From assembly GCF_014196205.1 (NCBI RefSeq), contig NZ_JACIDE010000025.1, positions 1 to 44,916 on the forward strand: 44,916 nt of DNA, in the 5' to 3' direction. The translations under genes were made by a program, and so were the position numbers. The notes under the pieces were generated by a model. The model saw only the letters and a list, made by a program, of their open reading frames with translations. It made no database searches and had not been told where the DNA came from. The stretch's first letter is position 1. Each line of letters begins with the position of its first letter. Source of the stretch: Anoxybacteroides voinovskiense (GTDB taxonomy: Bacteria > Bacillota > Bacilli > Bacillales > Anoxybacillaceae). Shown one piece after another: positions 1-42,571 of this stretch.

Positions 1-207
1 AGAAAACGCTTACAAACACTGGGTTATTTAAACCAAATATATCCAGAGAATCGAAATATCAAAAAAAATCTCCCACAAACTCTTGACTCAATCATTTTCA
101 TCCCTCCATTTGATTTTTCGCGGCGACTCCTGTACTATGTAAGTAACTGCTCGAAGTAAGGAATCACCTTTTTCTGAAACGTCTCACTCCGTCAAGTGAG
201 GCGTTTT
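1..207. other. Left edge of the element; no gene recognised, one terminator-like hairpin
   Basis: I see no convincing gene here. Positions 178-212 hold an inverted repeat (GTCTCAC with GTGAGgC) followed by a T run on the plus strand, so it can end a rightward transcript entering from outside the window. The same hairpin lies just past the end of the leftward gene at 208-423 but lacks a T run in that direction. A 25-codon leftward reading frame with a ribosome site sits near 50-125; it is too short to call. Confidence 0.4.
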
Positions 208-423
208 TCATTCCGCAATTTTTCGTACTACACCAAGATTTTCAATAAGATACTGCCAAATGTTTTCTTCAAGAACGACTTCCCCGTCTGGAAACTCGTA
301 GATTGTATCGCCATACAAAATTTCATCTCCGCACGCATCTACTCCCCAATGTTCTGATTCAATCTGATATGGGTAGCCTGTCCGCAACATTCTCGTGATT
401 GCTGGATGCTCTAAGTCTTGCAC
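208..423 (-). CDS. Small phage protein, YqaI-like
   Basis: Acidic 71-residue protein of unknown function. The middle and end (GDEILYGDTIYEFPDGEVVL, then a short helix ending NLGV) resemble the YqaI protein of the B. subtilis skin prophage from memory, so the family label is tentative. The GTG start at 423 is chosen because GGAGGTG lies 7 bases upstream. It is the last gene of the leftward operon inside the window and sits divergently from the rightward gene at 497 across the first palindromic sigma-H element. Confidence 0.6.
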   Translation of the reverse strand: MQDLEHPAITRMLRTGYPYQIESEHWGVDACGDEILYGDTIYEFPDGEVVLEENIWQYLIENLGVVRKIAE

Positions 424-430
424 GTCTTTT

Positions 431-493
431 CACCTCCTTTTTTGTAGGAATTCCCTCCCTTCGTGTCTAATAGTGGCGGAGAAGGGAGGTGAA
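431..493 (+). promoter_or_regulatory. Palindromic sigma-H-like promoter element, copy 1 (divergent ribosome sites)
   Basis: AGGA at 446-449 and TAAT at 468-471, 18 bases apart, occupy the places of the sigma-H -35 and -10 boxes seen in the sister copies. The -10 is degenerate (TAAT instead of GAAT). The pyrimidine spacer CCTCCCTTC is exactly complementary to the GAAGGGAGG that forms the ribosome site of the rightward gene at 497. The left edge CACCTCC is the ribosome site of the leftward gene at 208-423. Confidence 0.55.
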
Positions 494-496
494 AGC

Positions 497-772
497 ATGA
501 AAGAAAAGTTTCAGAAAATCGAAGAAATATTCAAAATTCTTGATGAATCTTTAATCAAAGAGATTATTGAACCTAAGATAAGCAATCGTATTCGAAACCA
601 TTACGATACCCTTATTCAACTCGGACTCAAAGATGATGAATTGATATCTGCGCTAGTTTCCGTTAGTGTCGCTGAATCCATTAGACTAAGCGCGTTCATT
701 ACGGTTTTATTAACAAACCTTGATCCAAACGAGCCATTCGACCCTCGCGATTTTATTCATGTCGTGAAATGA
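497..772 (+). CDS. Small cassette protein of unknown function (91 aa)
   Basis: Unknown 91-residue, mostly helical protein. It runs against the leftward early operon and follows palindromic element 1. ATG at 497 is chosen over upstream in-frame codons because GGGAGGTG sits 6 bases before it and because the sigma-H start would fall just upstream of that site. The C-terminus (NEPFDPRDFIHVV) recalls a stretch inside the cassette protein at 4030-4500 (NDAFDPTYFLHTL), which hints at a shared fold or ancestry. Its last 20 bases overlap the end of the convergent gene at 753-989. Confidence 0.7.
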   Translation: MKEKFQKIEEIFKILDESLIKEIIEPKISNRIRNHYDTLIQLGLKDDELISALVSVSVAESIRLSAFITVLLTNLDPNEPFDPRDFIHVVK

Positions 773-989
773 ATGGTTTTGCTAGTTCTTGAATACGCTC
801 TTTGCTTAATGGCTCTGGAAGCTTTATTACCGCATCGCTGGGTTTCAAACGTTCTGTATACACTTCACATTTCGGTTCAAACTCATTGATCCGCTGAAGG
901 GTTTCCTGTAGTTGCTCTACAAGAGTTTCGGCTCTCTCAAGCAAATGCTGGAATTCTTCAGCATTCTTGAATTGAATGGATGCTTTCAT
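753..989 (-). CDS. Small coiled-coil phage protein (78 aa)
   Basis: Unknown function. The first 45 residues are a strongly heptad-like helix (EEFQHLLERAETLVEQLQET), followed by a charged tail. Short coiled-coil proteins of this kind are common in the early regions of Bacillus phages; that comparison is general, not a family match. ATG at 989 has GGAGGTG 7 bases upstream, contributed by the left edge of palindromic element 2. It is presumably co-transcribed with the other leftward genes, since no promoter for it is visible in the element. Confidence 0.65.
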   Translation of the reverse strand: MKASIQFKNAEEFQHLLERAETLVEQLQETLQRINEFEPKCEVYTERLKPSDAVIKLPEPLSKERIQELAKPFISRHE

Positions 990-1000
990 ATTTCCTCACC

Positions 1001-1055
1001 TCCTTTTGCAGGATTCCCCTTTCTTTTGTCGAATGGTGACAATGAAAGGGGGTGA
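1001..1055 (+). promoter_or_regulatory. Palindromic sigma-H promoter element, copy 2
   Basis: AGGA at 1010-1013 and GAAT at 1031-1034 are separated by 17 bases, as I recall for the sigma-H promoter of B. subtilis spoVG. The -10 also reads as a 0A box (TGTCGAA). The arms are unusually long: CCCCTTTC and TTGTC pair with GACAA and GAAAGGGG around a loop that holds the -10. The ribosome sites of both flanking genes are the outer parts of the element. Confidence 0.75.
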
Positions 1056-1061
1056 GTAGCC

Positions 1062-1298
1062 TTGAAGAAGATATACGCCAATCTTCTTGGTGAATGGGTC
1101 GATCTCTCATCCGATGATACATGCTTAATGGGACCACGTATGGTCAAACCTTCCGTTTGGTGGGAAGAAAACGCTGAGATTTGGAGTCCCAATAAAAAAG
1201 ATGAACATACCATGTATCAATTGGACTATGTGAATATTCACTACAAAGGGAAAGACTATCGAATCAGCCCTATTTTTATCCAAGTTGTTAGCGAATAA
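1062..1298 (+). CDS. Small cassette protein of unknown function (78 aa)
   Basis: Unknown protein rich in tryptophan and tyrosine with a beta-like second half (YVNIHYKGKDYRISPIFIQV). No catalytic or metal-binding motif is visible. The TTG start at 1062 is supported by GGGGGTG 8 bases upstream and by the position of the sigma-H element; there is no in-frame ATG until far inside. It ends three bases before the convergent gene at 1301-1507, so the two can share a termination zone. Confidence 0.7.
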   Translation: MKKIYANLLGEWVDLSSDDTCLMGPRMVKPSVWWEENAEIWSPNKKDEHTMYQLDYVNIHYKGKDYRISPIFIQVVSE

Positions 1299-1300
1299 CG

Positions 1301-1507
1301 TCACTCAGTTTTGGCAATGACATCCGAATAACGTCGAAGGTTAAACTCAACTTCAAGGTTTCTTTTCAATTCTTCAGAGTCGTCAAGCTCCAGCTTGGCG
1401 GCTTTTAACGCGAAATATAGATTGACTTGTTGCGCAATTCTTTCCCACTCGTATTTTTTAAGACCTTGGAGTTGCTCAACTAAAGACGCGATTTGCTCTT
1501 TTGTCAT
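1301..1507 (-). CDS. Small helical phage protein (68 aa)
   Basis: Unknown function. It is almost wholly helical and charged (KEQIASLVEQLQGLKKYEWE at the start). ATG at 1507 is preferred to the GTG nine bases upstream because GGAGGTG precedes it at proper distance. This leftward gene has no palindromic partner element; upstream of it is the structured non-coding stretch at 1524-1690. Confidence 0.65.
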   Translation of the reverse strand: MTKEQIASLVEQLQGLKKYEWERIAQQVNLYFALKAAKLELDDSEELKRNLEVEFNLRRYSDVIAKTE

Positions 1508-1523
1508 TCCCTTCACCTCCTTT

Positions 1524-1690
1524 GCGTGTAGTCAATGCGCCAGTGCGCATCGTCATGACCAGGAACAAACGTGACGGGCGGGGGAGAACCCGATAGTTCC
1601 TAGCCATGACGACAGGCACTAGACCTGTCGGGTATGCGTGTAGTACAATGGTGGTGTGTGGGGGCTAGCGTTGCCGCGCTGGCCGTTTTT
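1524..1690 (+). ncRNA. Candidate structured RNA or DNA site with terminator
   Basis: About 140 bases without a gene, GC-richer than the surroundings and full of helices. ATGCGC (1535) pairs with GCGCAT (1545). CGTCATG (1551) and AGGAAC (1561) pair with GTTCCT (1596) and CATGACG (1605), making a long two-part stem. GACAGG (1611) pairs with CCTGTC (1624). GGCTAGCG (1663) pairs with CGCTGGCC (1677) and is followed by GTTTTTC, a rightward terminator shape. A near-perfect direct repeat GCGTGTAGT-(a)cAATG stands at 1524 and 1636. It could be a small RNA or a replication/transfer site; no clear promoter is seen. Confidence 0.4.
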
Positions 1691-1829
1691 CTTGTTGTAG
1701 CTCACGCAACCTTTGTTTCATTCGGTACTCAAACACCATGATGTGGAACGGATTGTTCCGCATCACCTCACAAACTCTCCGAATCTCTGAAACTTTCATT
1801 AAACGAGTAGTGAAGAAACGTACACTCAT
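1665..1829 (-). CDS. Small basic protein (54 aa), translationally coupled
   Basis: Short arginine-rich helical protein (start MSVRFFTTRLMKVSEIRRVC, end REKRPARQR-like basic tail). Function unknown. The ATG overlaps the TGA of the gene at 1829-2092 (TGATG), which argues for translational coupling and for a real gene despite its size. Its stop lies inside the terminator-like hairpin of the candidate RNA on the other strand. Confidence 0.55.
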   Translation of the reverse strand: MSVRFFTTRLMKVSEIRRVCEVMRNNPFHIMVFEYRMKQRLRELQQEKRPARQR

Positions 1830-2092
1830 CACTCATTCCCCTTTCTTGCTACAACTGCAATATCAATCCCTTTCTCACGCAGCGTTTCCACGATTTTCAC
1901 CAACTCATCGTGCCGTTCTTTCCGCCTAATAAGCTCGTCCAAATCTCGCTTGCAGCGAAGGAATTCCTCCGCCCATTTCTCTGCTTCGTCAAAGTGATCG
2001 TGTATTAATTCCAGGCGCGCTTGGAGTAAGCATAACGCCCCGAAGTTGACCAGCTTCTCCGCCAAGTGACGGTCTTTTTCTAATACGTTCAT
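1829..2092 (-). CDS. Small helical phage protein (87 aa)
   Basis: Unknown function. It has two long amphipathic helices rich in E, R and L, the second forming a probable coiled coil (residues about 40-75). The start overlaps the stop of the upstream gene at 2089-2385 (ATGA), and its own stop overlaps the next start, so 2629-to-1665 is a tight four-gene translational chain on the minus strand. Confidence 0.65.
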   Translation of the reverse strand: MNVLEKDRHLAEKLVNFGALCLLQARLELIHDHFDEAEKWAEEFLRCKRDLDELIRRKERHDELVKIVETLREKGIDIAVVARKGNE

Positions 2093-2385
2093 TGCTTCAT
2101 CTCCTCTCGGAGTCGAAGCCCGAACCGTTCAGGATACTTCTTGATTGCTTCAAGCACCGTTCCTAACGTCACAACGTTTTCGTGCAGTAACCCTTTATCG
2201 TCATCGAATGTTACTTCCGTAATAATGTTGCGATCCAAATCCAACACACTCACAACGTATAGTGGTGGTACAGCGTCAAATTCCAAAATGGACGATTGAA
2301 TGATTTGCGGTTGTTTATAGAGCGCATTTACATGGTTACGTACAAACACCGGAAGCTCATCGAACGAGATACGTTTAATTTTCAT
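2089..2385 (-). CDS. Small phage protein of unknown function (98 aa)
   Basis: Mixed alpha/beta protein with a hydrophobic strand pair in the middle (VPPLYVVSVLDLDRNIITEV). No family recognised. It overlaps the end of the gene at 2375-2629 by 11 bases and is preceded by a GGGGGATAAC ribosome site inside that gene. Part of the leftward early operon. Confidence 0.65.
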   Translation of the reverse strand: MKIKRISFDELPVFVRNHVNALYKQPQIIQSSILEFDAVPPLYVVSVLDLDRNIITEVTFDDDKGLLHENVVTLGTVLEAIKKYPERFGLRLREEMKQ

Positions 2386-2629
2386 TGTTATCCCCCTTCA
2401 TTTCTTGCTCTTTCTGCTTTCTGCGCTTTTCATTTTCCTTGACCATCCGAATATAAATTTCGATAAAGTTATCTAGCGCTTCTTTTGACGGTTCTTTCCG
2501 TTCACCTACGCACCGAACGACTACTTCTGGCGGCTTCATCGTTCTTTTTCGTTTTTTCACGTTCACCATCTCCTTTTTAGGAGATGTATGCGACGAATCA
2601 TCGTGTACAACATTCTGAATTTCCGACAT
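2375..2629 (-). CDS. Small basic phage protein (84 aa)
   Basis: Unknown function. Highly charged with a lysine/arginine cluster (VKKRKRTMK near residue 25) and a C-terminal helix of alternating E and K, so nucleic-acid binding is possible but unproven. ATG at 2629 has AGGAGGGAAATAAA before it. This ribosome site lies at the outer edge of palindromic element 3 but is not the usual CACCTCC form, so this copy of the element differs on its left side. Confidence 0.6.
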   Translation of the reverse strand: MSEIQNVVHDDSSHTSPKKEMVNVKKRKRTMKPPEVVVRCVGERKEPSKEALDNFIEIYIRMVKENEKRRKQKEQEMKGDNNEN

Positions 2630-2639
2630 TTTATTTCCC

Positions 2640-2700
2640 TCCTGTCAGTTTGTAGGAATTTCCTCCCTTCGTGTCGAATAGTGGCGGAGAAGGGAGGTGA
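2640..2700 (+). promoter_or_regulatory. Palindromic sigma-H promoter element, copy 3
   Basis: AGGA at 2654-2657 and GAAT at 2676-2679, 18 bases apart. The spacer CCTCCCTTC is exactly complementary to GAAGGGAGG before the rightward gene. This copy and copy 1 share the GTAGGAATT and GTGGCGGAG variants, so they form a subfamily. Confidence 0.65.
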
Positions 2701-2706
2701 TAAAAA

Positions 2707-2922
2707 ATGGCAAAGTTTTATTACTACAACAAACATGTTGATAATAAAGGAAACCACGAAGTTCACAGCGAAGATTGTTCTTATTTGCCTAACTATGACA
2801 ACCGCATAATGATCGGGTACGAAAACGACTGTAAATCTGCAATCGAGCGAGCAAAACGAGAAACCGGAAAAACGAACTTCGATGGCTGTTGGTATTGTAG
2901 TTTTGAGTGCCACACCGGATAA
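2707..2922 (+). CDS. Small cysteine/histidine-rich cassette protein, probable metal binder (71 aa)
   Basis: A 71-residue protein with an ordered set of possible ligands: HSEDC near residue 20, a single C in the middle, then GCWYCSFECH at the end. The layout (H-x3-C, then CxxC-x3-CH) suggests one small zinc site that ties the termini together, of the kind seen in Ada-type metal-binding modules; this is inference from spacing. ATG at 2707 follows GGGAGGTG by 7 bases. The gene is headed by palindromic element 3 and ends in a two-way terminator. Confidence 0.7.
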   Translation: MAKFYYYNKHVDNKGNHEVHSEDCSYLPNYDNRIMIGYENDCKSAIERAKRETGKTNFDGCWYCSFECHTG

Positions 2923-2946
2923 GAGGGGCTAGTCCCTCTTATCTCT
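2919..2946. terminator. Bidirectional terminator between convergent genes
   Basis: GATAAGAGGG and CCCTCTTATC form a 10-bp stem around a six-base loop. It overlaps the ends of the rightward gene at 2707 and the leftward gene at 2929. Confidence 0.55.
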
Positions 2947-3090
2947 ATAAGGAATCGCATTATCGTAATAAAACTTTCTGACAAGTGACGGTATTTTTTC
3001 GAGTTCCCTTAATGTAAAACCGTGTTCCTGACACTGTTTGCAAATGTACGTCACCAAGTCGTTGAACGCTTGTTCTCTTTGGTTGTTCAT
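2929..3090 (-). CDS. Small phage protein (53 aa)
   Basis: Short protein starting MNNQREQAFNDLV with a CKQC motif near residue 17 and a basic, aromatic end (VRKFYYDNAIPYRDK). Function unknown. ATG at 3090 has AGAGGGGGATATAC before it. It lies downstream of the 44-residue gene at 3109-3243 with an 18-base gap and is probably co-transcribed. Confidence 0.6.
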   Translation of the reverse strand: MNNQREQAFNDLVTYICKQCQEHGFTLRELEKIPSLVRKFYYDNAIPYRDKRD

Positions 3091-3108
3091 GTATATCCCC
3101 CTCTCTCA

Positions 3109-3243
3109 TTATTCGTAATGGGCGAGGATGATCTTTGCGATAACGTAAAGGTCTTCTTCGTCCCATCCTTTTTCGTAGGCGAATTGCAAAAGTTCTTTTG
3201 CTTTTGTGAGCGTTTCGTTCGGTAGTTTAATCATGTCTTTCAT
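3109..3243 (-). CDS. Very small phage protein (44 aa)
   Basis: A 44-residue acidic helical protein beginning MKDMIKLPNETLTKAKELL. Function unknown. The ATG at 3243 has GGAGGTG 7 bases upstream, formed by the left edge of palindromic element 4. The strong ribosome site and its place at the element justify calling it despite the length. Confidence 0.6.
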   Translation of the reverse strand: MKDMIKLPNETLTKAKELLQFAYEKGWDEEDLYVIAKIILAHYE

Positions 3244-3249
3244 TCCCTC

Positions 3250-3308
3250 TCACCTCCTTTTGCAGGATTTTCCTCCTCCTTGTCGAATGGTGACAATGAA
3301 AGGAGGTG
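3250..3308 (+). promoter_or_regulatory. Palindromic sigma-H promoter element, copy 4
   Basis: AGGA at 3264-3267, GAAT at 3285-3288, 17-base spacing. TTGTC pairs with GACAA around the -10, and CCTCCTT in the spacer pairs with AAGGAGG of the ribosome site. CACCTCC at the left serves the leftward gene. Confidence 0.75.
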
Positions 3309-3314
3309 GTTTCA

Positions 3315-3533
3315 ATGATTCGGATTGTTTATGGTTCGTGCCCAGAACAAGATTGCGAATATGACATCGCGGTTTACTATGCGCGTGTACCAACAATAAA
3401 TAGTCATCGAATCGGATACAAGAAAAATGGGTTTAATTGCGATTATGGCTCACTACATGGTTGTTCTTATGAAGATCGGCAACAATGCCCTATTTACAAC
3501 AATCTTCCTGAGATCTCTTACGATTTGGTCTGA
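3315..3533 (+). CDS. Small cysteine-rich cassette protein (72 aa)
   Basis: Unknown protein with five cysteines (CPEQDC near the start; C-x7-C and a further C in the second half), which may hold a metal ion. Tyrosine-rich, no catalytic motif recognised. ATG at 3315, not the in-frame GTG at 3306, because AGGAGGTG overlaps that GTG and lies 6 bases before the ATG. Its last 44 bases overlap the end of the convergent gene at 3490-3795. Confidence 0.7.
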   Translation: MIRIVYGSCPEQDCEYDIAVYYARVPTINSHRIGYKKNGFNCDYGSLHGCSYEDRQQCPIYNNLPEISYDLV

Positions 3534-3795
3534 TGAGCGCACTATATCGAATGTCTGTTGTTAGCTCTTCGAGAAGCCAAAATCGACTAAGATGATTCCA
3601 ATTGCATGCGTTAACGTATTTGCACGTTGCGCAGACCATCCCGAGGTCTGCCAACTGCTCCACTTTTGAATCTTCCCAAAAGTGGTACAAGTGCCAGCTG
3701 ATACAATGAAATGCGTGTTTCATCTTCTCGTCTCTTTCAACCAGAGCCACTAACGCTTGCACATTCTTCTCATCTGTGCAATAATTTTTTTCCAT
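3490..3795 (-). CDS. Phage protein with Cys/His cluster (101 aa)
   Basis: Unknown 101-residue protein. Residues about 28-70 carry H, C, H, H, then CATCKYVNAC and NH, a pattern that could bind zinc, followed by a basic tail. Start ATG 3795 with GAGGTGAGGGGAG before it; that ribosome site lies inside the end of the upstream gene at 3802-3957, so the pair is coupled. Confidence 0.65.
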   Translation of the reverse strand: MEKNYCTDEKNVQALVALVERDEKMKHAFHCISWHLYHFWEDSKVEQLADLGMVCATCKYVNACNWNHLSRFWLLEELTTDIRYSALIRPNRKRSQEDCCK

Positions 3796-3801
3796 CTCCC
3801 C

Positions 3802-3957
3802 TCACCTCACCGATATGAGTTGCATTGCCGCAATCACAAAAGCTAATTCACTTCGATCAGACCGTTCGATGAAGTTTTCTGCTTCATCAACGGTCCATCC
3901 TAAATGTTCAACAAACTGATTGATAAGCTTCTTTCGCAATGGAGCGCTAACGCTCAT
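3802..3957 (-). CDS. Small helical phage protein (51 aa)
   Basis: Short protein beginning MSVSAPLRKKLINQFVEHLG, mostly helical, resembling a single UBA-like or helix-bundle module only in a general way. Function unknown. ATG at 3957 follows AGAGGGGTGGGAG. It is the first leftward gene after palindromic element 5 and ends seven bases before the next start. Confidence 0.6.
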   Translation of the reverse strand: MSVSAPLRKKLINQFVEHLGWTVDEAENFIERSDRSELAFVIAAMQLISVR

Positions 3958-3965
3958 TAACTCCC

Positions 3966-4021
3966 ACCCCTCTTGCAGGATTCTCCTTCCTTTCGTCGAA
4001 TTAAAGCGACGGAAGGAGGTG
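3966..4021 (+). promoter_or_regulatory. Palindromic sigma-H promoter element, copy 5
   Basis: AGGA at 3977-3980, GAAT at 3998-4001, 17-base spacing. Here the inner arm is CGTCG with CGACG instead of TTGTC with GACAA, and the outer arm is CTCCTTCC with GGAAGGAG, so the base pairing is kept although the bases changed. Confidence 0.75.
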
Positions 4022-4029
4022 ATAACACG

Positions 4030-4500
4030 ATGGATAAAAAATCAGATAACGAAATTCCTACCCTCTTAAAAGAACGTATAGATTTAAAAGCGTTAACAGC
4101 TAAAACTTTTGCAAATGTTATCGAAAATATAAGAAACGGAAAGACTGAAGAAATAAGTATGGATCTGAATACTGAAATTTGGTTCTTTACACACTTTGGA
4201 ATAGTATCAGGAAGTCTATATATTCCATCAGAAGAAAACGATGCATTTGATCCGACTTATTTTCTTCATACACTCATTTTTAAGACTCGTGACTCGCTGC
4301 TTTCATCCTACATAGAAAAAGGTGTTGCGAGATTAACAAACGATTCTAGTTTCGTATTGCTTAAAAATGTAACAGTCAAGCCTTATGCTAGTCCTAGTAC
4401 TCCGTACAAGCTCGGTTACTTTCTTTTATACGGTGATGCAATTCTCGGCATATCTTTTGGAGATCAGCCGAAGGATCAATACGTACATGTGGTTGAATAG
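4030..4500 (+). CDS. Cassette protein of unknown function (156 aa), largest of the set
   Basis: A 156-residue protein without a signal peptide. The middle (residues 40-90) alternates strands with aromatic residues, and the NDAFDPTYFLHTL stretch resembles the end of the cassette protein at 497-772. The end (KDQYVHVVE) also matches the IHVVK ending of that protein, so the two may belong to one family with the larger one carrying an N-terminal addition. ATG 4030 follows GGAGGTG by 8 bases. Its 3' end overlaps the convergent gene at 4394-4594 by 107 bases. Confidence 0.7.
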   Translation: MDKKSDNEIPTLLKERIDLKALTAKTFANVIENIRNGKTEEISMDLNTEIWFFTHFGIVSGSLYIPSEENDAFDPTYFLHTLIFKTRDSLLSSYIEKGVARLTNDSSFVLLKNVTVKPYASPSTPYKLGYFLLYGDAILGISFGDQPKDQYVHVVE

Positions 4501-4594
4501 ACACTGACTTCGGAGCTGTCGCCTTATCGGCGGCTTCTTTTTCCAATTTAGCGATACGTGCTTCTAATTCAGCTAGACGTTGCTCGATGTCCAT
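4394..4594 (-). CDS. Small coiled-coil phage protein (66 aa)
   Basis: Starts MDIEQRLAELEARIAKLEKE, a clear coiled coil in residues 3-22, followed by a less regular basic part. Function unknown. ATG 4594 has GGAGGTG 7 bases upstream from palindromic element 6. Its second half lies fully antisense to the end of the rightward gene at 4030-4500; either both frames are used or the real protein matters mainly for its first 30 residues. Confidence 0.6.
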   Translation of the reverse strand: MDIEQRLAELEARIAKLEKEAADKATAPKSVSIQPHVRIDPSADLQKICRELHHRIKESNRACTEY

Positions 4595-4601
4595 TTCCCT
4601 C

Positions 4602-4658
4602 ACCTCCTTTTGCAGGATTCTCCTTCCCTTTGTCGAATGTTGACACTGGAAAGGAGGT
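4602..4658 (+). promoter_or_regulatory. Palindromic sigma-H promoter element, copy 6
   Basis: AGGA at 4614-4617, GAAT at 4635-4638, 17-base spacing, perfect 0A-like TGTCGAA. TGTC pairs with GACA around the -10. CTCCTTCCC pairs with GGAAAGGAG with one mismatch. Confidence 0.75.
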
Positions 4659-4664
4659 GTCCAA

Positions 4665-4892
4665 ATGAGCTGGAATGCAGAAATTGTTTTAAAATCTGGA
4701 AAAGTTGTTGCTGTTGCTGATTTAGTATCAATCAATCGCGTAAGTCAATCTGACAGCTCTGTGTCTAAAAACACTGACTTTGAAAACTTTACACTTCCAT
4801 CTAAAGGGATACTGTCGTTTGTCGGTAAAAACCATATCGTATGGCTCGAATCGTCCGATATTGAATACTTATCGTTATTCCGAGTTAACTGA
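4665..4892 (+). CDS. Small cassette protein of unknown function (75 aa)
   Basis: A 75-residue protein that reads as a small all-beta module (VLKSGKVVAVADLVSI, then GILSFVGKNHIVWL and an acidic end). This could be an SH3- or Sm-like barrel, but that is only a guess from strand pattern. ATG 4665 follows AGGAGGTG by 6 bases. It overlaps the end of the convergent gene at 4885 by 8 bases. Confidence 0.7.
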   Translation: MSWNAEIVLKSGKVVAVADLVSINRVSQSDSSVSKNTDFENFTLPSKGILSFVGKNHIVWLESSDIEYLSLFRVN

Positions 4893-5013
4893 TTTCAATT
4901 TCCACGACAAGAGTGCAGCGTGCGCTGTGCTCTTTTTCAATTTCGAGTAGTTGCTCGACAATCCGTTTTGCTTCTTCCACGTTTGAGCAAGATAGTTTTA
5001 CTTTTACTTCCAT
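4885..5013 (-). CDS. Very small phage protein (42 aa)
   Basis: Begins MEVKVKLSCSNVEEAKRIVE; a strand-helix-strand pattern that could be half of a small alpha/beta fold. ATG 5013 is preferred to an upstream in-frame ATG because GGGGGTG lies 6 bases before it and the longer form would read through palindromic element 7. Function unknown. Confidence 0.55.
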   Translation of the reverse strand: MEVKVKLSCSNVEEAKRIVEQLLEIEKEHSARCTLVVEIEIS

Positions 5014-5024
5014 TCCCCTCACCC

Positions 5025-5093
5025 CCTTTATGCGGTTTGTTATTGCAGGATTTTCCTTCCCTTTGTCGAATGTTGACACTGGAAAGGAGGTGA
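5025..5093 (+). promoter_or_regulatory. Palindromic sigma-H promoter element, copy 7
   Basis: AGGA at 5047-5050, GAAT at 5068-5071, 17-base spacing, TGTC/GACA inner arm. The left side differs from the other copies: the leftward ribosome site is separated from the -35 by about 14 extra bases. Confidence 0.75.
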
Positions 5094-5098
5094 ATAAG

Positions 5099-5371
5099 TT
5101 GATAACTTTTGCCGAAGTAAAATGCTACAATTGTGAAAATTCTTTTCCTGTTTACTGGAACAACTGGGAAAAGAACTTGCCTATCCGTTGTCCTTTTTGT
5201 ATTGCTAGTTTTAATGAAAAATTTACAGAAATGCTTAAACATTCGTTAGGTACAGTAAACGAATTAAACAAAGAGCTTAGAAGTCGTCACAGCGACGGGT
5301 CTCACGACTTGTTCCAAGTCGATTTCAAACATGTATACGTTCCAATCGATAAATATCGCTTAGATGATTAA
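5099..5371 (+). CDS. Cassette zinc-ribbon protein (90 aa)
   Basis: Residues 9-12 (CYNC) and about 32-35 (CPFC) form a CxxC...CxxC zinc ribbon, followed by a helix (NEKFTEMLKHSLGTVNELNK) and a short tail. Such ribbons bind DNA, RNA or proteins; the partner is unknown. The TTG start at 5099 is chosen because AGGAGGTG precedes it by 6 bases and no ATG fits. Its last 47 bases overlap the convergent gene at 5325-5531. Confidence 0.65.
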   Translation: MITFAEVKCYNCENSFPVYWNNWEKNLPIRCPFCIASFNEKFTEMLKHSLGTVNELNKELRSRHSDGSHDLFQVDFKHVYVPIDKYRLDD

Positions 5372-5531
5372 ACAACTCATACGCTTGATATTCATTGAGA
5401 TCGTTACGCAATAACACTTCTTTGATTTCCTCTACGACTTTTTCGTAACGGTCTCTCCCCAACGCAATTTGTAATTCTTGTTTAGCATGCTTGATTGAAC
5501 AAAGTGCTTGCTCAAGCTGTTCCATTGTCAT
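5325..5531 (-). CDS. Small helical phage protein (68 aa)
   Basis: Begins MTMEQLEQALCSIKHAKQEL; all-helical, charged. Unknown function. ATG 5531 is chosen over a GTG nine bases upstream because GGGGGTG stands 7 bases before it. Lies 16 bases after the antirepressor gene, likely the same leftward transcript. Confidence 0.6.
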   Translation of the reverse strand: MTMEQLEQALCSIKHAKQELQIALGRDRYEKVVEEIKEVLLRNDLNEYQAYELFNHLSDIYRLERIHV

Positions 5532-5546
5532 TGTCCTCACCCCCTT

Positions 5547-6332
5547 TCACGCGGTTTGCTCGTCCCTCTCGATAAGAGGAAGGATGCCGAGTTTGTTTTT
5601 CAACATTTCATAGATGAATAAGCGTCCTTTTTGCGTCCAATACGTGTGCATTTTGCTCGTTTCTGAATCAATCGTGTGCGTTTTACTTTGCGTGTACCCT
5701 TTGTCTTGGTACTTGGAGTAAAGCAACCAGCAATCACCTTGTTTGTATTGAATGCCGAGCTGATGCAACAGTTGGTTCATTTTCATCGCGCTCATGCCGT
5801 AGTCTTTCGCAATTTTACTAATCGAAATGAGCGATTTGTTTTGCAGGATTAAATCGTAATAAGTCGCTTTCGGCTGTAATTCTTTGATGATTTGGTCTTT
5901 CTGTGCGTTTTGCAGTTGCAATTGCTCGTTTCGCTCCACTTGCTCAACTAACTGCAACAGCGCCTCTTTGTACGTCGTCGGCAACTTGAACGGCTGTTTC
6001 TGCTTCTCCAGCTCCGCACGCATGCGCTTAAACTCCTCAATGAACCGCACCTTCATTTTCATTGCCTCTGGCGTCGTGTACGACATGGCTACCAACGTGA
6101 ACGCTTCTTCGGTGAGAAGGTATTTTTTGTACCACTGCTTGTTTTGTGGGTGTTGGTAGTGGGTCTGCTCAAAGTTGAGCACCCCCCATTCTCTTTCGCC
6201 AGCTTCATTCAATTTTTCGATCTGTACTTCAATATCACGTACAACGTTTCGATGATCTTTCTCAAACACTTCCGCTACCGTTAAGCTGTCTGTTACAACA
6301 CGGTTGCTTTCGATGAAAACTAACTGATTCAT
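5547..6332 (-). CDS. Phage antirepressor: Rha-type N-terminus with ANT (KilA-C) C-terminus
   Basis: A 261-residue protein. Residues 1-110 match the Rha (pRha) domain: VTDSLTVAEVFEKDHRNVVR, then the VLNFEQTHY and YLLTEEAFTLVAMSYT segments. Residues about 150-250 look like a C-terminal antirepressor domain (ISISKIAKDYGMSAMKMN with a winged-helix feel), with a coiled linker between. In phages such proteins counter the repressor or alter host functions during early growth. It lies directly after the Cro-like gene, on the leftward transcript that the CI-like repressor would control. Confidence 0.85.
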   Translation of the reverse strand: MNQLVFIESNRVVTDSLTVAEVFEKDHRNVVRDIEVQIEKLNEAGEREWGVLNFEQTHYQHPQNKQWYKKYLLTEEAFTLVAMSYTTPEAMKMKVRFIEEFKRMRAELEKQKQPFKLPTTYKEALLQLVEQVERNEQLQLQNAQKDQIIKELQPKATYYDLILQNKSLISISKIAKDYGMSAMKMNQLLHQLGIQYKQGDCWLLYSKYQDKGYTQSKTHTIDSETSKMHTYWTQKGRLFIYEMLKNKLGILPLIERDEQTA

Positions 6333-6344
6333 CGCGTTCCTCCT

Positions 6345-6563
6345 TTATGCGGTTTTGTCACCATTTTGGTTACTACGGGGTAAAAAAATATCTTCTATTC
6401 TTTTACCGAAAAAATCTCGTAGTTTAAACATTTCTTCTAAAGTGAATTGAAATTCACCGCGTTCTTTCAAACCATATGTTTTTTCGGTGATTCCTAGATA
6501 TTCAGCGAGTTGTTTTTGGGTCACTCCTCGCTTTTTACGAAGGATAATCAGTTTTTCCTGCAT
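6345..6563 (-). CDS. Cro-like XRE-family regulator
   Basis: A 72-residue single-domain helix-turn-helix protein (KRGVTQKQLAEYLGITEKTY), divergent from the CI-like repressor gene, hence the likely Cro counterpart. GGAGGTG lies 6 bases before the ATG at 6563. Upstream, TTTACA and TAGGAT with 17-base spacing form its promoter, and one copy of the operator repeat sits between them. Unusually, this HTH has TYGLKERG where most XRE proteins have TYSRWERG. Confidence 0.85.
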   Translation of the reverse strand: MQEKLIILRKKRGVTQKQLAEYLGITEKTYGLKERGEFQFTLEEMFKLRDFFGKRIEDIFLPRSNQNGDKTA

Positions 6564-6589
6564 CCTATCACCTCCTTCTGATTGTTATC

Positions 6590-6692
6590 CTATCACCAAA
6601 ACGGTTACTTGTAAAGAGTTTTTTGTTATTTTTTTTATATTTTTGTTCCGAAACGGTTACTTTTGTGCTAATATTCTATTAGATTATTAGAA
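6590..6692. promoter_or_regulatory. Divergent cro/cI promoter-operator region
   Basis: Two direct copies of an operator-like word, AAACGGTTACTT, lie at about 6599-6610 and 6652-6663. The left one falls in the 17-base spacer between TTTACA and TAGGAT of the leftward promoter. The right one falls just upstream of a TGCTAATAT extended -10 before the rightward repressor gene. A third partial copy (TTTTGGTTAC) lies at about 6363 near the end of the Cro-like gene. A repressor bound to these sites would control both directions. Confidence 0.65.
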
Positions 6693-6705
6693 AGGAGGTG
6701 TTGAT

Positions 6706-7326
6706 TTGAGTTTACAAAGATATGTAGGAGAGAAAATAAAAGAATTTCGTTTAAAACGCGGTATGAGTCAAGAAGAATTGGCTGACTTATTAGGCACGAC
6801 TAAACAAACAGTAAGTAGATATGAAATCGGAGAAAGAAAAGCTAATCAAGACGTTCTTTTTAAATTGTCAGAAATATTTAAAGTTAGTATTGACGATTTT
6901 TTCCCTTCCAAGAAAGAAAATGAAGTAAAATCGATTGTTTTCACCAAACTCCCGGTGGTCGGGGCGGTCAGCTGCGGAAATGGCGTGTTGGCATACCAAG
7001 AGATTGAGGGGTATGAAGAAGTGCCGACAAGTTGGTTGAACGGCGGCGAATACTTTTTCGTGCGTGCCAAAGGTGACAGCATGATAAACGCTCGCATTAT
7101 GGACGGCGACCTGTTACTCATCCGCAGGCAAGAGGATGTGGAAAGTGGAGAGATTGCCGCTGTCCTTATCGACGACGAAATCGTTTTGAAACGAGTGTAC
7201 AAAACAAACGGCACGATTATTTTGCAAAGTGAAAACCCGAAGTATCAGCCAATTGTTGTGCAAAAGAGCGACATGAAAAATGTGCGCATCATAGGGAAAT
7301 TGAAGAAAGTGGTTTTAAATTTTTGA
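6706..7326 (+). CDS. CI-like phage repressor (XRE HTH plus S24/LexA peptidase)
   Basis: A 206-residue repressor. Residues 8-62 are the helix-turn-helix domain (GMSQEELADLLGTTKQTV). Residues 83-206 are the LexA/S24 self-cleaving domain: predicted cleavage bond Cys90-Gly91 (VSCG), nucleophile Ser125 in GDSM, general base Lys162 (VLKRV). It should hold the element silent and cleave itself when RecA filaments form after DNA damage. The TTG start at 6706 has AAAGGAGGTG 5-6 bases upstream. A strong terminator follows at 7341. Confidence 0.93.
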   Translation: MSLQRYVGEKIKEFRLKRGMSQEELADLLGTTKQTVSRYEIGERKANQDVLFKLSEIFKVSIDDFFPSKKENEVKSIVFTKLPVVGAVSCGNGVLAYQEIEGYEEVPTSWLNGGEYFFVRAKGDSMINARIMDGDLLLIRRQEDVESGEIAAVLIDDEIVLKRVYKTNGTIILQSENPKYQPIVVQKSDMKNVRIIGKLKKVVLNF

Positions 7327-7338
7327 CGTCAGAAATTT

Positions 7339-7370
7339 AAAAGAGCAACGCAAATGGTTGCTCTTTTTCA
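7339..7370 (+). terminator. Terminator after the repressor gene
   Basis: AGAGCAAC and GTTGCTCT form an 8-bp stem followed by a T run. Confidence 0.8.
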
Positions 7371-7449
7371 CTTTTAAGTTAAAATTTTTGAAGGAAATCA
7401 CCTTTTTTTATAGAAAAACCTATAATAAGTAATACTAACAGGGGGAATA

Positions 7450-7737
7450 ATGATGGAAAAGAAAACTTACTATGCAAATAATGTACAAATGGCTCTGCAA
7501 TTATACGATATGGTCATGGAGTTTTCTATTTTAAACCCTGATAACACCAAAGAGGACACCGTCAGAATCTTTATGAGTCCACAACATGCCAAAGTTTTTG
7601 CACATCTTTTATTGGATCATGTTCGTATTTATGAAGAGACATTTGGTTCTATCCCTAATCCACCTTCTCCAGAACAATTGCAAGAACTCCAAGAAAGAGG
7701 GATAATTAATCTTAGAGAAGGGGATGCAAAAAATTAA
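7450..7737 (+). CDS. DUF3467 family protein
   Basis: A 95-residue protein matching the DUF3467 family from memory: NNVQMALQLYDMVMEF, DTVRIFMSPQHAKVF, and the IPNPPSPE tail typical of the family. Biochemical role unknown. It is the first gene of a tight rightward trio with the nuclease-fold gene (TAATG stop/start overlap) and the DUF2283 gene. GGGGG precedes the paired ATGs at 7450/7453, and a TATAAT -10-like box stands at 7421. Confidence 0.75.
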   Translation: MMEKKTYYANNVQMALQLYDMVMEFSILNPDNTKEDTVRIFMSPQHAKVFAHLLLDHVRIYEETFGSIPNPPSPEQLQELQERGIINLREGDAKN

Positions 7738-8123
7738 TGCAGGAAAAGCATTCATCTTCAACAGCGAGTATTTATATATTTGATACTAAGGATCCATACG
7801 GTAAACGAGTGTTTTTGGAGAAGGCTCGTTTCGAAGAGCATATATTGGATCATCACCCAGAGATGAAGGGGAACGAGCATGCCATGAAAGAAACGGTTGA
7901 AAATCCTCATCTCATCATCCAAAGCAAACAGAACCCTAATCGCTGGTTGTATGTTGGGAAAAGCGATATGGCTACCTACCCACTTTTAAATATAAAAACA
8001 GTGGTTGACCATACTTCAACGGAATATGGATATGTAGTCACGGGACTATTCCAAAAGAAAATTAACGCGGAAAAGGAGGGAACGGTCATTTATGAAAGAA
8101 CAAGTGAAAATTCACTACGATGA
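7737..8123 (+). CDS. Predicted PBECR-like nuclease-fold protein, possible toxin
   Basis: A 128-residue protein with the pattern FEEHILDHHPEM, ETVENPHLIIQS, RWLYVGK and a C-terminal YVVTGLFQKKI strand. This pattern resembles the barnase/EndoU/colicin-like small nuclease folds found in phage and plasmid proteins (PBECR group). The conserved HHPE and arginine/lysine residues would be the active site. The family assignment is by memory of the motif order, so moderate. It precedes and overlaps (32 bases) a DUF2283 gene, the usual arrangement of a toxin with its antitoxin. Confidence 0.55.
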   Translation: MQEKHSSSTASIYIFDTKDPYGKRVFLEKARFEEHILDHHPEMKGNEHAMKETVENPHLIIQSKQNPNRWLYVGKSDMATYPLLNIKTVVDHTSTEYGYVVTGLFQKKINAEKEGTVIYERTSENSLR

Positions 8124-8334
8124 AGAATGCGACGTTTTATATATTTCATTTGGGGAACCGCGCCCTTCCTACGCAGAAGATTTTGAAGATGGGGTATACA
8201 TTCGGTATGACATGGAAACAGATGCGCTAACAGGCGTAACTATTTTAGATTTCTCGAAAAGAAAAAATGAACTTAAAAATATGCCTTGGCCGTTTACATT
8301 CCCAACCGAAAGTGTAAACGAAGTGGTTCATTAA
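8092..8334 (+). CDS. DUF2283 family protein, possible antitoxin
   Basis: An 80-residue protein with the DUF2283 signature: IHYDEECDVLYISFGE, then GVYIRYDMETDALTGVTILDFS. Members are often coded next to small toxin-like genes and are taken as antitoxins in several predicted modules. The ATG lies inside the end of the upstream gene with a GGAGGGAAC ribosome site, so its translation is coupled to that gene. Followed by a terminator hairpin at 8351. Confidence 0.75.
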   Translation: MKEQVKIHYDEECDVLYISFGEPRPSYAEDFEDGVYIRYDMETDALTGVTILDFSKRKNELKNMPWPFTFPTESVNEVVH

Positions 8335-8349
8335 TCATTCTCCTCTTAT

Positions 8350-8380
8350 AAAGCGCTCAATACGGGCGCTCTATTTTTGT
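8350..8380 (+). terminator. Terminator after the DUF2283 gene
   Basis: AGCGC and GCGCT stem separated by about eight bases, followed by CTATTTTTG. Confidence 0.6.
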
Positions 8381-8424
8381 TAGCATAGTTCTGTAATTTG
8401 TTTTTCCAAGGAGGCTCAACCAAA

Positions 8425-9816
8425 ATGAAAGTCGCCATTTACGTTCGAGTCAGTACAGACGAACAAGCGAAAGAGGGGTTTTCCATCCCAGCGCAACGGG
8501 AACGACTGCGGGCATTTTGTGCAAGCCAAGGCTGGGAGATTGTGCAGGAGTATATCGAAGAAGGATGGTCTGCCAAAGACTTAGAGCGACCGCAAATGCG
8601 GCAATTGCTTAAAGATATCAAGAAAGGGAACATCGACATCATATTAGTTTATCGGTTAGACCGCTTAACACGGTCGGTGTTGGACTTATATTTGTTGCTC
8701 CAGACGTTTGAAAAATACAACGTGGCGTTTCGTTCAGCAACCGAGGTATATGACACTTCCACGGCAATGGGAAGGCTATTTATTACGCTTGTGGCTGCGC
8801 TTGCGCAATGGGAGCGCGAAAACCTTGCCGAGCGCGTGAAATTTGGTATCGAACAAATGATTGATGAGGGGAAAAAGCCTGGCGGACATTCCCCATATGG
8901 TTACAAATTCGATAAAGATTTTAATTGCACGGTTGTCGAAGAGGAAGCGAAGACGGTTCAAATGATATATCGATTGTATTGCGATGGGTATGGATATCGG
9001 AGCATCGCCGATCGACTAAATGAATTAGGAATCAAGCCGCGCATCGCCAAAGAGTGGAATCATATTTCTATCCGCGATATTTTAACAAATGATATTTACA
9101 TCGGCACATATCGATGGGGGAATAAAGTCGTTCCGAACAATCATCCAGCGATTATTAGTGAGCCGTTATTCAAAAAAGTGCAGAAAGAAAGGGAAAAAAG
9201 AGAAGTAGATCGGTCAAGAGTTGGGAAATTTCTTTTTACTGGTCTCTTATATTGTGGCAATTGCAATGAACATAAAATGCAAGGCTCTTTTGATAAACGT
9301 GAACAAAAAACGTATTATCGATGTTTAAAGTGTAACCGAATTACACACGAGAAGAATATTTTAGAGTCATTGCTCGCGGAAGTTCAATTGCTCATCACAT
9401 CGAAAGAATATTTTATGTCCAAGTTCTCTCACCAGTTCGATGAACCGAAGACAATCGACGTTTCTGCCCTAACAAAAGAGCTGGAAAAGATAAAACGACA
9501 AAAAGAAAAATGGTATGATTTATACATGGACGATAACAATCCCATTCCGAAAGAGGAGCTATTCGCAAAAATTAATGAATTAAACGAGAAAGAAAAAGAA
9601 ATTTACGAAACATTAAGCGAATGTGAATTAGAGGAGAAAGAGTCCATTGAGGAGAAATATAATCGAATAAGCAAGATGACCGATTTTAAACAGCAATTCG
9701 AACAAGCAGACGATTTCACGAAAAAAGAACTTCTCTTTAGCATTTTCGAAAGAATTGTAATGTATCGGGAGAAAGGGAAAGGGAAAAAGCTAACGCTCGA
9801 TTACACATTGAAGTAA
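8425..9816 (+). CDS. Large serine recombinase (integrase)
   Basis: A 463-residue large serine recombinase. Residues 1-150 form the resolvase catalytic domain (YVRVSTDEQ with Ser10 as nucleophile; YRLDRLTRSVLDL helix). Residues 160-260 form the recombinase domain. The zinc ribbon (CGNCNEHKM ... YYRCLKCN) lies near residues 280-310, and a long coiled coil (EKIKRQKEKWYDLY onward) carries the att-sorting role. It integrates and, with a directionality factor, excises the element between attP and attB. ATG 8425 is preferred to upstream codons because GGAGG lies 10 bases before it. It ends within 20 bases of a broken host gene, as expected at an attR boundary. Confidence 0.95.
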   Translation: MKVAIYVRVSTDEQAKEGFSIPAQRERLRAFCASQGWEIVQEYIEEGWSAKDLERPQMRQLLKDIKKGNIDIILVYRLDRLTRSVLDLYLLLQTFEKYNVAFRSATEVYDTSTAMGRLFITLVAALAQWERENLAERVKFGIEQMIDEGKKPGGHSPYGYKFDKDFNCTVVEEEAKTVQMIYRLYCDGYGYRSIADRLNELGIKPRIAKEWNHISIRDILTNDIYIGTYRWGNKVVPNNHPAIISEPLFKKVQKEREKREVDRSRVGKFLFTGLLYCGNCNEHKMQGSFDKREQKTYYRCLKCNRITHEKNILESLLAEVQLLITSKEYFMSKFSHQFDEPKTIDVSALTKELEKIKRQKEKWYDLYMDDNNPIPKEELFAKINELNEKEKEIYETLSECELEEKESIEEKYNRISKMTDFKQQFEQADDFTKKELLFSIFERIVMYREKGKGKKLTLDYTLK

Positions 9817-9840
9817 ACCGAACCTGTTTAAAAGTTAGCG
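9817..9840. other. Probable attR junction of the integrated element
   Basis: The reading frame of the broken binding-protein gene continues upstream without a stop to about 9819 but stops looking like the family before residue K (9831), followed by VSVGQLTQTDGTF. The integrase stop is at 9816. The crossover therefore lies in about 9817-9845; the exact core cannot be set without the left end, which is outside the window. Confidence 0.55.
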
Positions 9841-10520
9841 TTGGGCAACTCACCCAAACGGACGGAACGTTTCTCGTGTCGCGGAAAAAAATCGATCACT
9901 TCTCGTGGGAAATGTTAAAAGGAAGCACGTTCCTCGGGCAACGGAAAGGCGGCATGCCACAAATGGTTGGTGAATTTGTCTTAAAGAAACACGGAATTGA
10001 CCCGCACAAAGACTTAAACCTCATTCAAAACATCGATTTTGCCAATCTTGCCAATGCTTTTGCGAGCGGTACTGGCGACTTCGTTCAATTATTCGAGCCA
10101 ACCGCGAGCGTTTTTGAACAACAAGGAAAAGGATATATCGTCGCTTCGTTTGGAACAGAGTCCGGTCACGTCCCATATACAACATTTATGGCAAAACAAA
10201 GCTTTATGAAAAACAATCAAGAGACAATCGAAAAATTCACCCGTGCCCTCTACAAAGCGCAGCAATGGGTCGATGCACATAGCGCAGCAGAAATCGCCAA
10301 AGTCATTCATCCGTATTTTAAAGACACGGACGTCAAACTAATCGAAACGGTCATTGACCGCTACAAGCAACAAAGTTCTTATGCAACAAACCCAATTTTA
10401 GATGAAAAAGAATGGGAGAACTTGCAAAACATTATGAAAGAAGCTGGAGAACTGCCGAAACACATTGATCATGACATCCTTGTGAATACCTCTTTTGCGA
10501 AAAAAGCAATGGCAAAATAA
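9831..10520 (+). pseudogene. 5'-truncated ABC transporter substrate-binding protein (NMT1/SsuA-like, ytlA type)
   Basis: About 230 C-terminal residues of a periplasmic-type binding protein of the nitrate/sulfonate/thiamine-precursor class (GQLTQTDGTFLVSRKKIDHF, then FASGTGDFVQLFEP and the helical ending). The lipoprotein signal and roughly the first 100 residues are missing. No start codon with a ribosome site lies near the beginning, and a GTG at 9876 is only an accidental start. The missing half should be found beyond the left end of the element. Ligand unknown; thiamine precursors or sulfonates are the usual choices. With the promoter also displaced, the downstream ATPase and permease genes may be poorly expressed while the element is integrated. 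Confidence 0.8.
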
Positions 10521-42167: not shown

Positions 42168-42239
42168 TGACCCGTACGGGATTCGAACCCGTGTTACCGC
42201 CGTGAAAGGGCGGTGTCTTAACCACTTGACCAACGGGCC
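42168..42239 (-). tRNA. tRNA-Glu (TTC), copy 1
   Basis: Cloverleaf with GGCCCGT/ACGGGTC acceptor stem and anticodon TTC in CCTTTCACG. CCA not encoded. Last gene of the operon. Confidence 0.96.
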
Positions 42240-42252
42240 GCACATAAGAAAC

Positions 42253-42345
42253 TGGCGGAGAAGGCGGGATTTGAACCCGCGCGCCGCAAAGACGCGACCT
42301 AACGGTTTAGCAAACCGTCCCCTTCAGCCACTTGGGTACTTCTCC
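42253..42345 (-). tRNA. tRNA-Ser (GCT)
   Basis: 93 bases, class II with long variable arm; anticodon GCT in TTTGCTAAA; CCA encoded. Confidence 0.96.
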
Positions 42346-42348
42346 TCA

Positions 42349-42560: not shown

Positions 42561-42571
42561 GTTTAGGAAAG

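Follow-up and report, generated by a model that had tools for sequence, protein, structure and literature searches.

A sigma-H-type promoter module with a predicted hairpin over the ribosome site fronts exchangeable small genes in Bacillota prophages

Introduction

At the left end of a contig of the heat-loving spore-former Anoxybacteroides voinovskiense (NZ_JACIDE010000025.1), seven different small rightward genes lie inside a prophage operon that is read leftward, and each of them stands behind a copy of the same palindromic, promoter-like element of ~50 bp. The window analysed here is this entire contig (C25; 44,916 nt) of a draft genome of 58 contigs and 3.23 Mb, and the prophage end fills its left 9.8 kb. 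The question raised by the array is what one standard element, set repeatedly in front of unrelated genes and against the operon, does for a prophage. Judged by its sequence, the element is a real and widespread module under strong constraint. With moderate confidence, we take it to be an exchangeable and insulated expression port, from which a lysogen would express accessory genes when the host sigma-H is active while read-through RNA stays untranslated. What appears to be new is the combination, under what is probably a host developmental sigma factor, of two known principles, namely a hairpin that masks the Shine-Dalgarno (SD) sequence and the shuffling of genes at promoter-stem repeats.

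Anatomy of the seven elements

The elements are listed with the position of their AGGA and with the E-value of their match to the element model described below.
442..493, + strand: element 1, sigma-H-like promoter GTAGGAATT / GTCTAAT, stem and SD (AGGA at 446; E = 9.7e-10)
1006..1056, + strand: element 2, GCAGGATTC / GTCGAAT, stem and SD (AGGA at 1010; E = 2.5e-12)
2650..2701, + strand: element 3, GTAGGAATT / GTCGAAT, stem and SD (AGGA at 2654; E = 5.7e-12)
3260..3310, + strand: element 4, GCAGGATTT / GTCGAAT, stem and SD (AGGA at 3264; E = 3.3e-14)
3973..4024, + strand: element 5, GCAGGATTC / GTCGAAT, stem and SD (AGGA at 3977; E = 8.4e-11)
4610..4660, + strand: element 6, GCAGGATTC / GTCGAAT, stem and SD (AGGA at 4614; E = 4.0e-12)
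5043..5093, + strand: element 7, GCAGGATTT / GTCGAAT, stem and SD (AGGA at 5047; E = 1.0e-12)

A preliminary description, made from the letters of the window, had reported these AGGA positions, and the letters bear it out: the spacing is AGGA-N17-GAAT in copies 2, 4, 5, 6 and 7 and N18 in copies 1 and 3, copy 1 has TAAT in place of GAAT, and ribosome sites occur on both strands at all seven. The leftward site lies ~10 to 25 nt left of the AGGA. Leftward genes sit between the elements, with gene ends converging between them and genes diverging at them, which explains the ribosome sites on both sides. The palindrome that had been noted is also present; it is, however, more than the decoration of a promoter, because the spacer between the -35 and -10 motifs (e.g. 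CCTCCCTTC) is complementary to the downstream SD (GAAGGGAGG). The promoter spacer thus forms the left arm and the ribosome site the right arm, with the -10 motif in the loop. The predicted stems of the window copies range from -18.8 to -25.7 kcal/mol; in the best fold of copy 4, the SD pairs with the left-hand ribosome site instead of the spacer. The element letters contain no T-run after the stem. Generally, the SD follows GAAT by 10 to 15 nt and the start codon mostly by 24 to 30 nt.

Short motifs alone are only partly specific, as AGGA-N16..19-GAAT occurs 15 times on the two strands of the window (six being elements) and the tighter AGGA-W-W-N-G-N-N-GAAT eight times (again six being elements). 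An element model based on sequence only was built from 53 copies, including the seven of the window, which therefore match by construction; over the 3.23-Mb genome these score E = 3e-14 to 1e-9. There was one further strong match (C18:50076, E = 2e-12), and the next best had E = 0.0097. The match in C18 (L153, L240) marks a second element-bearing region of the same genome, with one element and a different cargo gene (MDKYKIGELFNNC...).

Promoter type

The -35 and -10 motifs of sigma-H promoters are separated by 11-12 nt. Their published consensus is RNAGGAWWW / RNNGAATWW (PMC8510167). Compared with RNAGGAWWW and RNNGAAT, copies 3, 4 and 7 match in full and the other four with one mismatch each, at the last W of the -35 motif in copies 2, 5 and 6 and at the G of GAAT in copy 1; the final WW of the consensus is found in copy 5 only (1/7). 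In this genome, spoVG, a sigma-H-dependent gene, carries GAAGGAAATA..GTGGAAT, and spoVS carries GCAGGAATA-N-AGTGAAT. Both have AGGA-N17-GAAT, as do five of the seven elements. In Bacillus thuringiensis, spoVS depends on sigma-H (PMC8510167). The sigma-H-type layout proposed in the preliminary description is thereby upheld, and from it we infer that sigma-H drives the element. Matches to sigma-70-type promoters were not enriched in the region (10, against 13.7 expected from shuffles), although two weak ones overlap element 4.

Other sigma-H-like sites were seen in the same genome. Three near-identical copies of AGGATTTTTTTATCTTC(A/C)TGTCGAAT occur at C13:69225, C14:1446 and C45:9668 (L003, L004 and L008), two of them ~67 nt before the same open reading frame (ORF; MSVQIRAIYESSYLN...), which resembles an insertion sequence transposase; an insertion sequence behind a site of this type is possibly expressed in stationary phase. 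At C19:4402 (L005), AGGA..TTGTCGAAT precedes by ~65 nt an ORF that resembles, by eye, a ComQ-type isoprenyl transferase, and a host sigma-H promoter is plausible there from the sequence.

Covariation of the spacer with the SD

Copies of the element were gathered from IMG/VR by two patterns, which returned 75 and 47 stretches. With L001-L008 and record L010, which is almost certainly this same genome, left out, these gave 112 unique matches including the window. Of these, 19 yielded no start and 16 were set aside for a start outside 15-31 nt or an ORF shorter than 40 aa, leaving 77 short-leader copies. The longest ORF was taken in each case, so that a few starts, such as those of window genes 4 and 7, are placed too far upstream. 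In these 77 copies, the duplex between the spacer and its own SD had an energy of -16.57, compared with -14.45 when arms were permuted among copies (z = -8.3, P at the floor of 5e-5); with one copy for each of the 47 downstream protein clusters, the values were -15.93 and -13.90 (z = -6.2). Because both patterns demand CC in the spacer and thereby favour the arm, the test was repeated with GTAGGATTT-N10-TGTCGAAT alone, which matched 54 stretches of IMG/VR (48 unique copies), compared with two, counted without inspection of the loci, for the same pattern written backwards. An SD-like stretch and a start were found by eye in all 48, the script having missed the start of one (L061). Removal of near-duplicates left 34 copies (28 short-leader and 6 long-leader), and in the 28, where the arm had not been selected, the own duplex was again the stronger (-13.25 vs -11.82, z = -4.0). 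Covariation was also kept in 27 copies without an upstream divergent SD (z = -4.3), so divergent ribosome sites alone do not account for the stem.

In partition-function folds of the 77 copies, the SD is predicted to be unpaired with a probability of 0.10 in read-through RNA and 0.63 in RNA from an assumed start at GAAT+6, compared with 0.45 and 0.52 for 107 other genes of the same loci with like geometry. RNAalifold on a MAFFT alignment gave a weak consensus (-1.57 kcal/mol, with two-sided changes at two pairs). The weakness stems from loops of variable length and from SD arms that the alignment does not bring into register by column; pairing was therefore tested copy by copy with permutations.

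A set of long-leader variants (L026, L034, L038, L061, L130 and L132; L278, L280, L288 and L314) has the same -35 and -10 motifs followed by a separate stem, TTGGT..ACCAA or, in Aneurinibacillus, GAAGAACCG..CTTCTTC, with the SD 27-40 nt or more downstream. These possibly represent another kind of leader control.

Cassette exchange between prophages

Related prophages contain the same genes in other sets and orders. In L235, from the same genus, the blocks follow one another as window 1504-2700, a new gene, 869-1055, 2649-3309 (element 3 and gene 3), 1006-1523 (element 2 and gene 2) and 5525-6346, and neighbouring blocks overlap by 51 and 50 bp, which is the element itself. L237 has gene 6 before gene 5, with a block overlap of 21 bp inside the element. 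L236, from another genus, is 96.5% identical to the window over 1607-2700, and the similarity ends at element 3, which fronts another gene there. Likewise, the flanking sequence of element 7 runs into gene 7 in the window and into a homologue of gene 2 in L235 and L009.

Across ten related loci, chosen by hand from 21 after duplicates and poorly matching ones had been left out, 33 of 68 homology-block ends fall in elements, which make up 10% of the region (circular-shift P = 6.5e-4; a binomial P, which assumes independence, was not used). As the elements are alike and BLAST runs through them, the block ends mark shared junctions and not exact crossovers. The remaining ends cluster at convergent gene ends, and the cassette thus extends from an element to the convergent end. 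The earlier proposal of exchangeable cassettes gained and lost at the repeats is supported by this turnover, with junctions at the elements.

Distribution of the element

In a family sample, the element model matched 28 of 41 genomes at E <= 0.01 and 18 of 41 at E <= 1e-5. At the latter threshold, it matched 27 of 397 genomes of an order sample and 23 of 398 of a class sample, together 46 distinct genomes with 19 family labels; as only half of 82 loci examined (41; L153-L234) have the strict promoter-SD-start pattern, these counts include weaker or host sites. Clear cassettes were recognized by eye in 13 of 75 named-genome loci, including loci of Oceanobacillus, Anoxybacillus, Ureibacillus, Parageobacillus, Halalkalibacter, Melghiribacillus, Sporosarcina globispora, Piscibacillus and Perspicuibacillus. 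The remaining named-genome matches were set aside as host-type promoters with long leaders or as chance matches (Bacteroidetes and others).

The element also occurs in isolated phages. In phiOH2 (L013:6885), the annotated gene gp51 stands behind it, and in NIIg3.2 (L012:7131) its -10 motif is GTCGAAAT. When the 49-nt element was compared by blastn with GenBank phages, three records were returned, of which only NIIg3.2 was convincing; two Listeria phage records, with 21 nt matched, were not accepted. In phage vB_PtoS_NIIg3.2, a rightward ORF behind the element (L012:7131-7420) is similar to the YjcQ-type cargo of L070, in a stretch for which the GenBank annotation has leftward genes only. A search of papers for the element letters found primers and chance matches only. 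Wide occurrence, together with block exchange, rules out an element confined to this one locus and devoid of cassette turnover.

Cargo genes

The genes behind the seven elements are as follows.
497..772, + strand: cargo gene 1, 91 aa, no confident family; element-linked homologues in L009 and L090
1062..1298, + strand: cargo gene 2, 78 aa, TTG start, unknown function; phrog_3240, E = 4.3e-36
2707..2922, + strand: cargo gene 3, 71 aa, Cys/His-rich, unknown function; phrog_4298, E = 1.2e-25
3315..3533, + strand: cargo gene 4, 72 aa, Cys-rich, no confident family; scanned from codon 2
4030..4500, + strand: cargo gene 5, 156 aa, no confident family; followed by a terminator-like stem at 4512-4537
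4665..4892, + strand: cargo gene 6, 75 aa, no confident family; followed by a terminator-like stem at 4909-4934
5099..5371, + strand: cargo gene 7, 90 aa, TTG start, two Cys pairs, unknown function; phrog_15404, E = 2e-31

A different small gene indeed stands behind each element, but the sizes given earlier (72-156 aa) are corrected to 71 to 156 aa, genes 2 and 7 beginning with TTG. A promoter-like site precedes all seven genes, and terminator-like stems follow genes 5 and 6 only. The 77 unique copies front 47 protein clusters. Among 46 cargo representatives, ten Pfam families were found with one member each (DUF2513, KTSC, YjcQ, DUF1508, zinc ribbons, SWIM and others), and 30 PHROG families, nearly all of unknown function and one of them Lar-like at E = 1e-4. 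A PADLOC scan of the same representatives matched four models at E = 1e-5 to 7e-4, which were not accepted as defence genes.

With respect to orientation, 65 of the 77 copies oppose the dominant strand of their flanks and 12 do not. In Staphylococcus phage 3MRA (L015:4016-4255), a homologue of gene 2 occupies the same place, opposed and beside the antirepressor, without an element, and the cargo slot is therefore older or wider than the port. At L009:9337, a homologue of gene 2 stops after 34 codons, a decayed cargo behind a port that looks intact.

Proposed function and alternative explanations

In the mechanism that we propose, the host sigma-H, which is active when growth ceases and the cell turns to sporulation or competence, would initiate transcription ~7 nt after GAAT, the distance usual for sigma-H promoters and assumed here. 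Since this start lies inside the palindrome, the resulting short mRNA would lack the left arm and its SD would be free. RNA entering from upstream, by rightward read-through or, where a cassette is co-directional, from the lytic operon, would hold both arms, fold and remain untranslated, so that lysogens would produce the cargo in the sigma-H state and only little of it outside that state. Where a cassette is opposed, the read-through to be silenced would originate in neighbouring cassettes or in transcription on the repressor side, and this source is the least secure step of the mechanism. Because the ports are alike over ~50 bp and self-contained, homologous recombination between them could swap cargo between prophages. 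The wider proposal, which we rate at even odds, is that the temperate phages of many spore-forming Bacillota share one mobile port, consisting of a host sigma-H promoter with a spacer selected to mask the SD except in the port's own transcript; any small ORF placed behind it would come to be expressed by the lysogen in stationary phase or sporulation and be shielded from the lytic programme, and port homology would be the site of cargo trade.

Several observations weigh against the insulated, sigma-H-driven port. No covariation was found in the 6 long-leader copies (z = -0.08), nor was it significant in 11 co-directional copies (z = -1.1, P = 0.14; a hand list, from which L009:12284, lying at a contig cut and the twelfth by strand dominance, was left out), where protection should matter most. 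Shuffled spacers still hide the SD in read-through RNA of the 77 copies (0.17 unpaired), because pyrimidine-rich spacers pair with SDs anyway. The seven window copies, too, hide it with a shuffled spacer, since the left divergent ribosome site also supplies an anti-SD; the native value is lower in copies 2, 4 and 5 only. In favour of host sigma-H, a sigma-H gene was present, at E <= 1.3e-95, in all 23 element-positive genomes (E <= 1e-5) of the class sample of 398, 318 of which pass the sigma-H family cut-off (that the 23 do so is taken from their E-values), but kinship among genomes makes this co-occurrence a weak test. Finally, a Sigma70_r4 match exceeds the Pfam cut-off in two of six element-bearing phage records (those of L009 and L071), where a phage factor might act instead.

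The stem might serve not the rightward mRNA but the leftward transcript, by keeping the anti-SD of the rightward gene off the leftward SD, or the DNA, as a repressor operator. Divergent SDs do occur at all seven window elements, the left SD region offers a pairing partner to the right SD, and the inner TTGTC-GAATnnT-GACAA of copies 2, 4, 6 and 7 is operator-like; the 27 copies lacking an upstream divergent SD nevertheless covary, and it is the pairing, not the inner palindrome, that is conserved among copies, which leaves this explanation unlikely. A slightly smaller chance is given to another factor reading the promoter, a phage-encoded sigma factor or activator, which would make the cassettes lytic or middle genes instead of stationary-phase genes. 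Besides the two Sigma70_r4 matches, sporulation-like sigma factors are described in Bacillus phages (PMC9429907). No Sigma70_r4 match over the cut-off was found, however, in the other four of the six records, including the complete phiOH2 genome, the same layout stands at host spoVS and spoVG, GTAGGATTT-N10-TGTCGAAT also precedes long-leader genes in host chromosomes that are not phage-like, and most copies (65/77) are directed against the flanking genes.

More doubtful again is that the elements are plain sigma-H promoters with ribosome sites and that the complementarity has no role and simply results from a pyrimidine-rich spacer lying next to a purine-rich SD. The behaviour of shuffled spacers (0.17 vs 0.10) and the absence of covariation in co-directional and long-leader copies agree with this, but own arms fit better than arms exchanged with copies of like composition class, the SD is more open in control genes from these loci (0.45 unpaired), and in some copies, including L032, L051 and L066, pairing involves AAUUAA and not the SD alone. 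It is hardly credible that the rightward ORFs are not genes and that the elements instead mark boundaries of the leftward operon: the ORF behind the NIIg3.2 element is indeed unannotated in GenBank, but the products of genes 2, 3 and 7 match PHROG families (E = 4e-36 to 1e-25), the cargo representatives match 30 such families, and gp51 of phiOH2 is annotated behind an element.

If the exchangeable, insulated sigma-H port is real, a searchable signature of ~50 bp, comprising promoter, mask and ribosome site, marks the prophage genes that are meant for a resting or sporulating host. Since at least 47 clusters stand behind the element and few have a Pfam match, they would constitute a list of candidate prophage genes acting on sporulation, competence or dormancy; such a function of the cargo we infer from the promoter in front of it. 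Small genes could then move between phages together with their regulation, in a gene-exchange system defined by an expression adaptor and not by a recombinase. With the port as the homology for cargo trade, a prophage would keep a revisable library of dormancy-time genes. The port would also offer a compact, naturally occurring way to shield a promoter from read-through.

Comparison with known systems

Hairpins that sequester the ribosome site and keep longer transcripts silent are described for T-even I-TevI, segB, Aeh1 mobE, soc and e, where an adjacent promoter starts RNA inside the hairpin and only that RNA exposes the SD (PMC2988022). The element resembles these T4 late and homing-endonuclease hairpins in that its SD is predicted to be paired in read-through RNA (0.10 unpaired, against 0.45 in the 107 controls). 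In T4, however, late promoters time lytic genes and each hairpin belongs to one gene, whereas here one recurrent sigma-H-type module fronts many unrelated genes, and its spacer and SD arm covary between copies. The cargo, moreover, does not generally lie on longer co-directional transcripts, the cassettes being mostly opposed to the operon (65/77, with about 12 co-directional).

The promoter early stem-loops (PeSLs) of a 2014 paper are reportedly found in lytic myoviruses, where an early promoter is joined to a stem of the terminator type. The stem of the element, by contrast, overlaps the promoter spacer and the SD, lacks a T-run and belongs to a sigma-H-type promoter of a temperate phage with a serine integrase. 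PeSLs of T4-like phages are promoter elements that mediate gene shuffling (PMC4503421), and the two are alike in placing a repeated promoter and stem at the borders of shuffled small genes, as the 33 of 68 block ends in elements illustrate. In cluster K mycobacteriophages, start-associated sequences (SAS) and their extended form (ESAS) are short repeats that mark where some of the non-structural genes begin, these genes belonging to different families, and half of the repeats carry an inverted repeat (PMC3203893). The motif, GGGATAGGAGCCC, is 13 bp long and contains no promoter, the inverted repeats of 17 bp lie upstream of it, and it is described for one phage cluster, with unknown function (PMC3203893). 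The element shares with them its position at the starts of genes of different families, but its sequence differs from GGGATAGGAGCCC, and promoter, stem and SD form one unit found in many host families. Membership in the PeSL, SAS and T4 late classes was rejected on the features tested.

Morons are genes that form self-contained units, are inserted into a prophage against the direction of its lytic operon and are presumably expressed in the lysogen. The cassettes resemble them in being opposed to that operon, each behind a promoter-like site; terminator-like stems, however, follow only two of the seven genes, all seven share one standard promoter-ribosome site module, and the base composition of the array is not distinct. 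The host sigma-H promoters of spoVS and spoVG have the same -35/-10 layout and spacing, but the host copies compared here have longer leaders (about 46 nt or more from the GAAT region to the start) and lack a stem module in common. A search of open-licence PMC papers, with subscription papers not covered, found no description of a sigma-H cassette module that recurs in prophages. The earlier statement that no system of this form had been described thus holds, within this search, for the combination, whereas the insulating hairpin (PMC2988022) and PeSL shuffling (PMC4503421) were already known.

The prophage locus

The prophage part of the window is cut by the contig start and consists of leftward small genes, an antirepressor, a small regulator and then a rightward repressor and integrase, beyond which lie transporter and chromosomal genes.
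5547..6332, - strand: Rha / KilAC antirepressor of the leftward early operon (PF09669, E = 4e-28; PF03374, E = 7e-34)
6345..6563, - strand: Cro-like small regulator, by sequence reading alone, with no library search
6706..7326, + strand: S24/HTH prophage repressor (PF00717, E = 4.8e-32; PF01381, E = 6.9e-19)
8398..9816, + strand: serine integrase (PF00239, E = 9.7e-44; PF07508, E = 3.6e-28)

This context of antirepressor, repressor and integrase supports the head-on position of the array inside the leftward early operon of a prophage, as first described. An Rfam scan of window 1-10000 gave two sub-threshold matches, both implausible and not retained. Similarity to the prophages of L235 (another species) and L236 (another genus) does not stop at the end of the integrase but reaches 9894-9895, within a truncated gene of transporter type, and this extension (window 9816-9895) suggests that different hosts share the attachment site. 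In the right part of the window, 14 leftward tRNA genes are clustered at 42168-44691.

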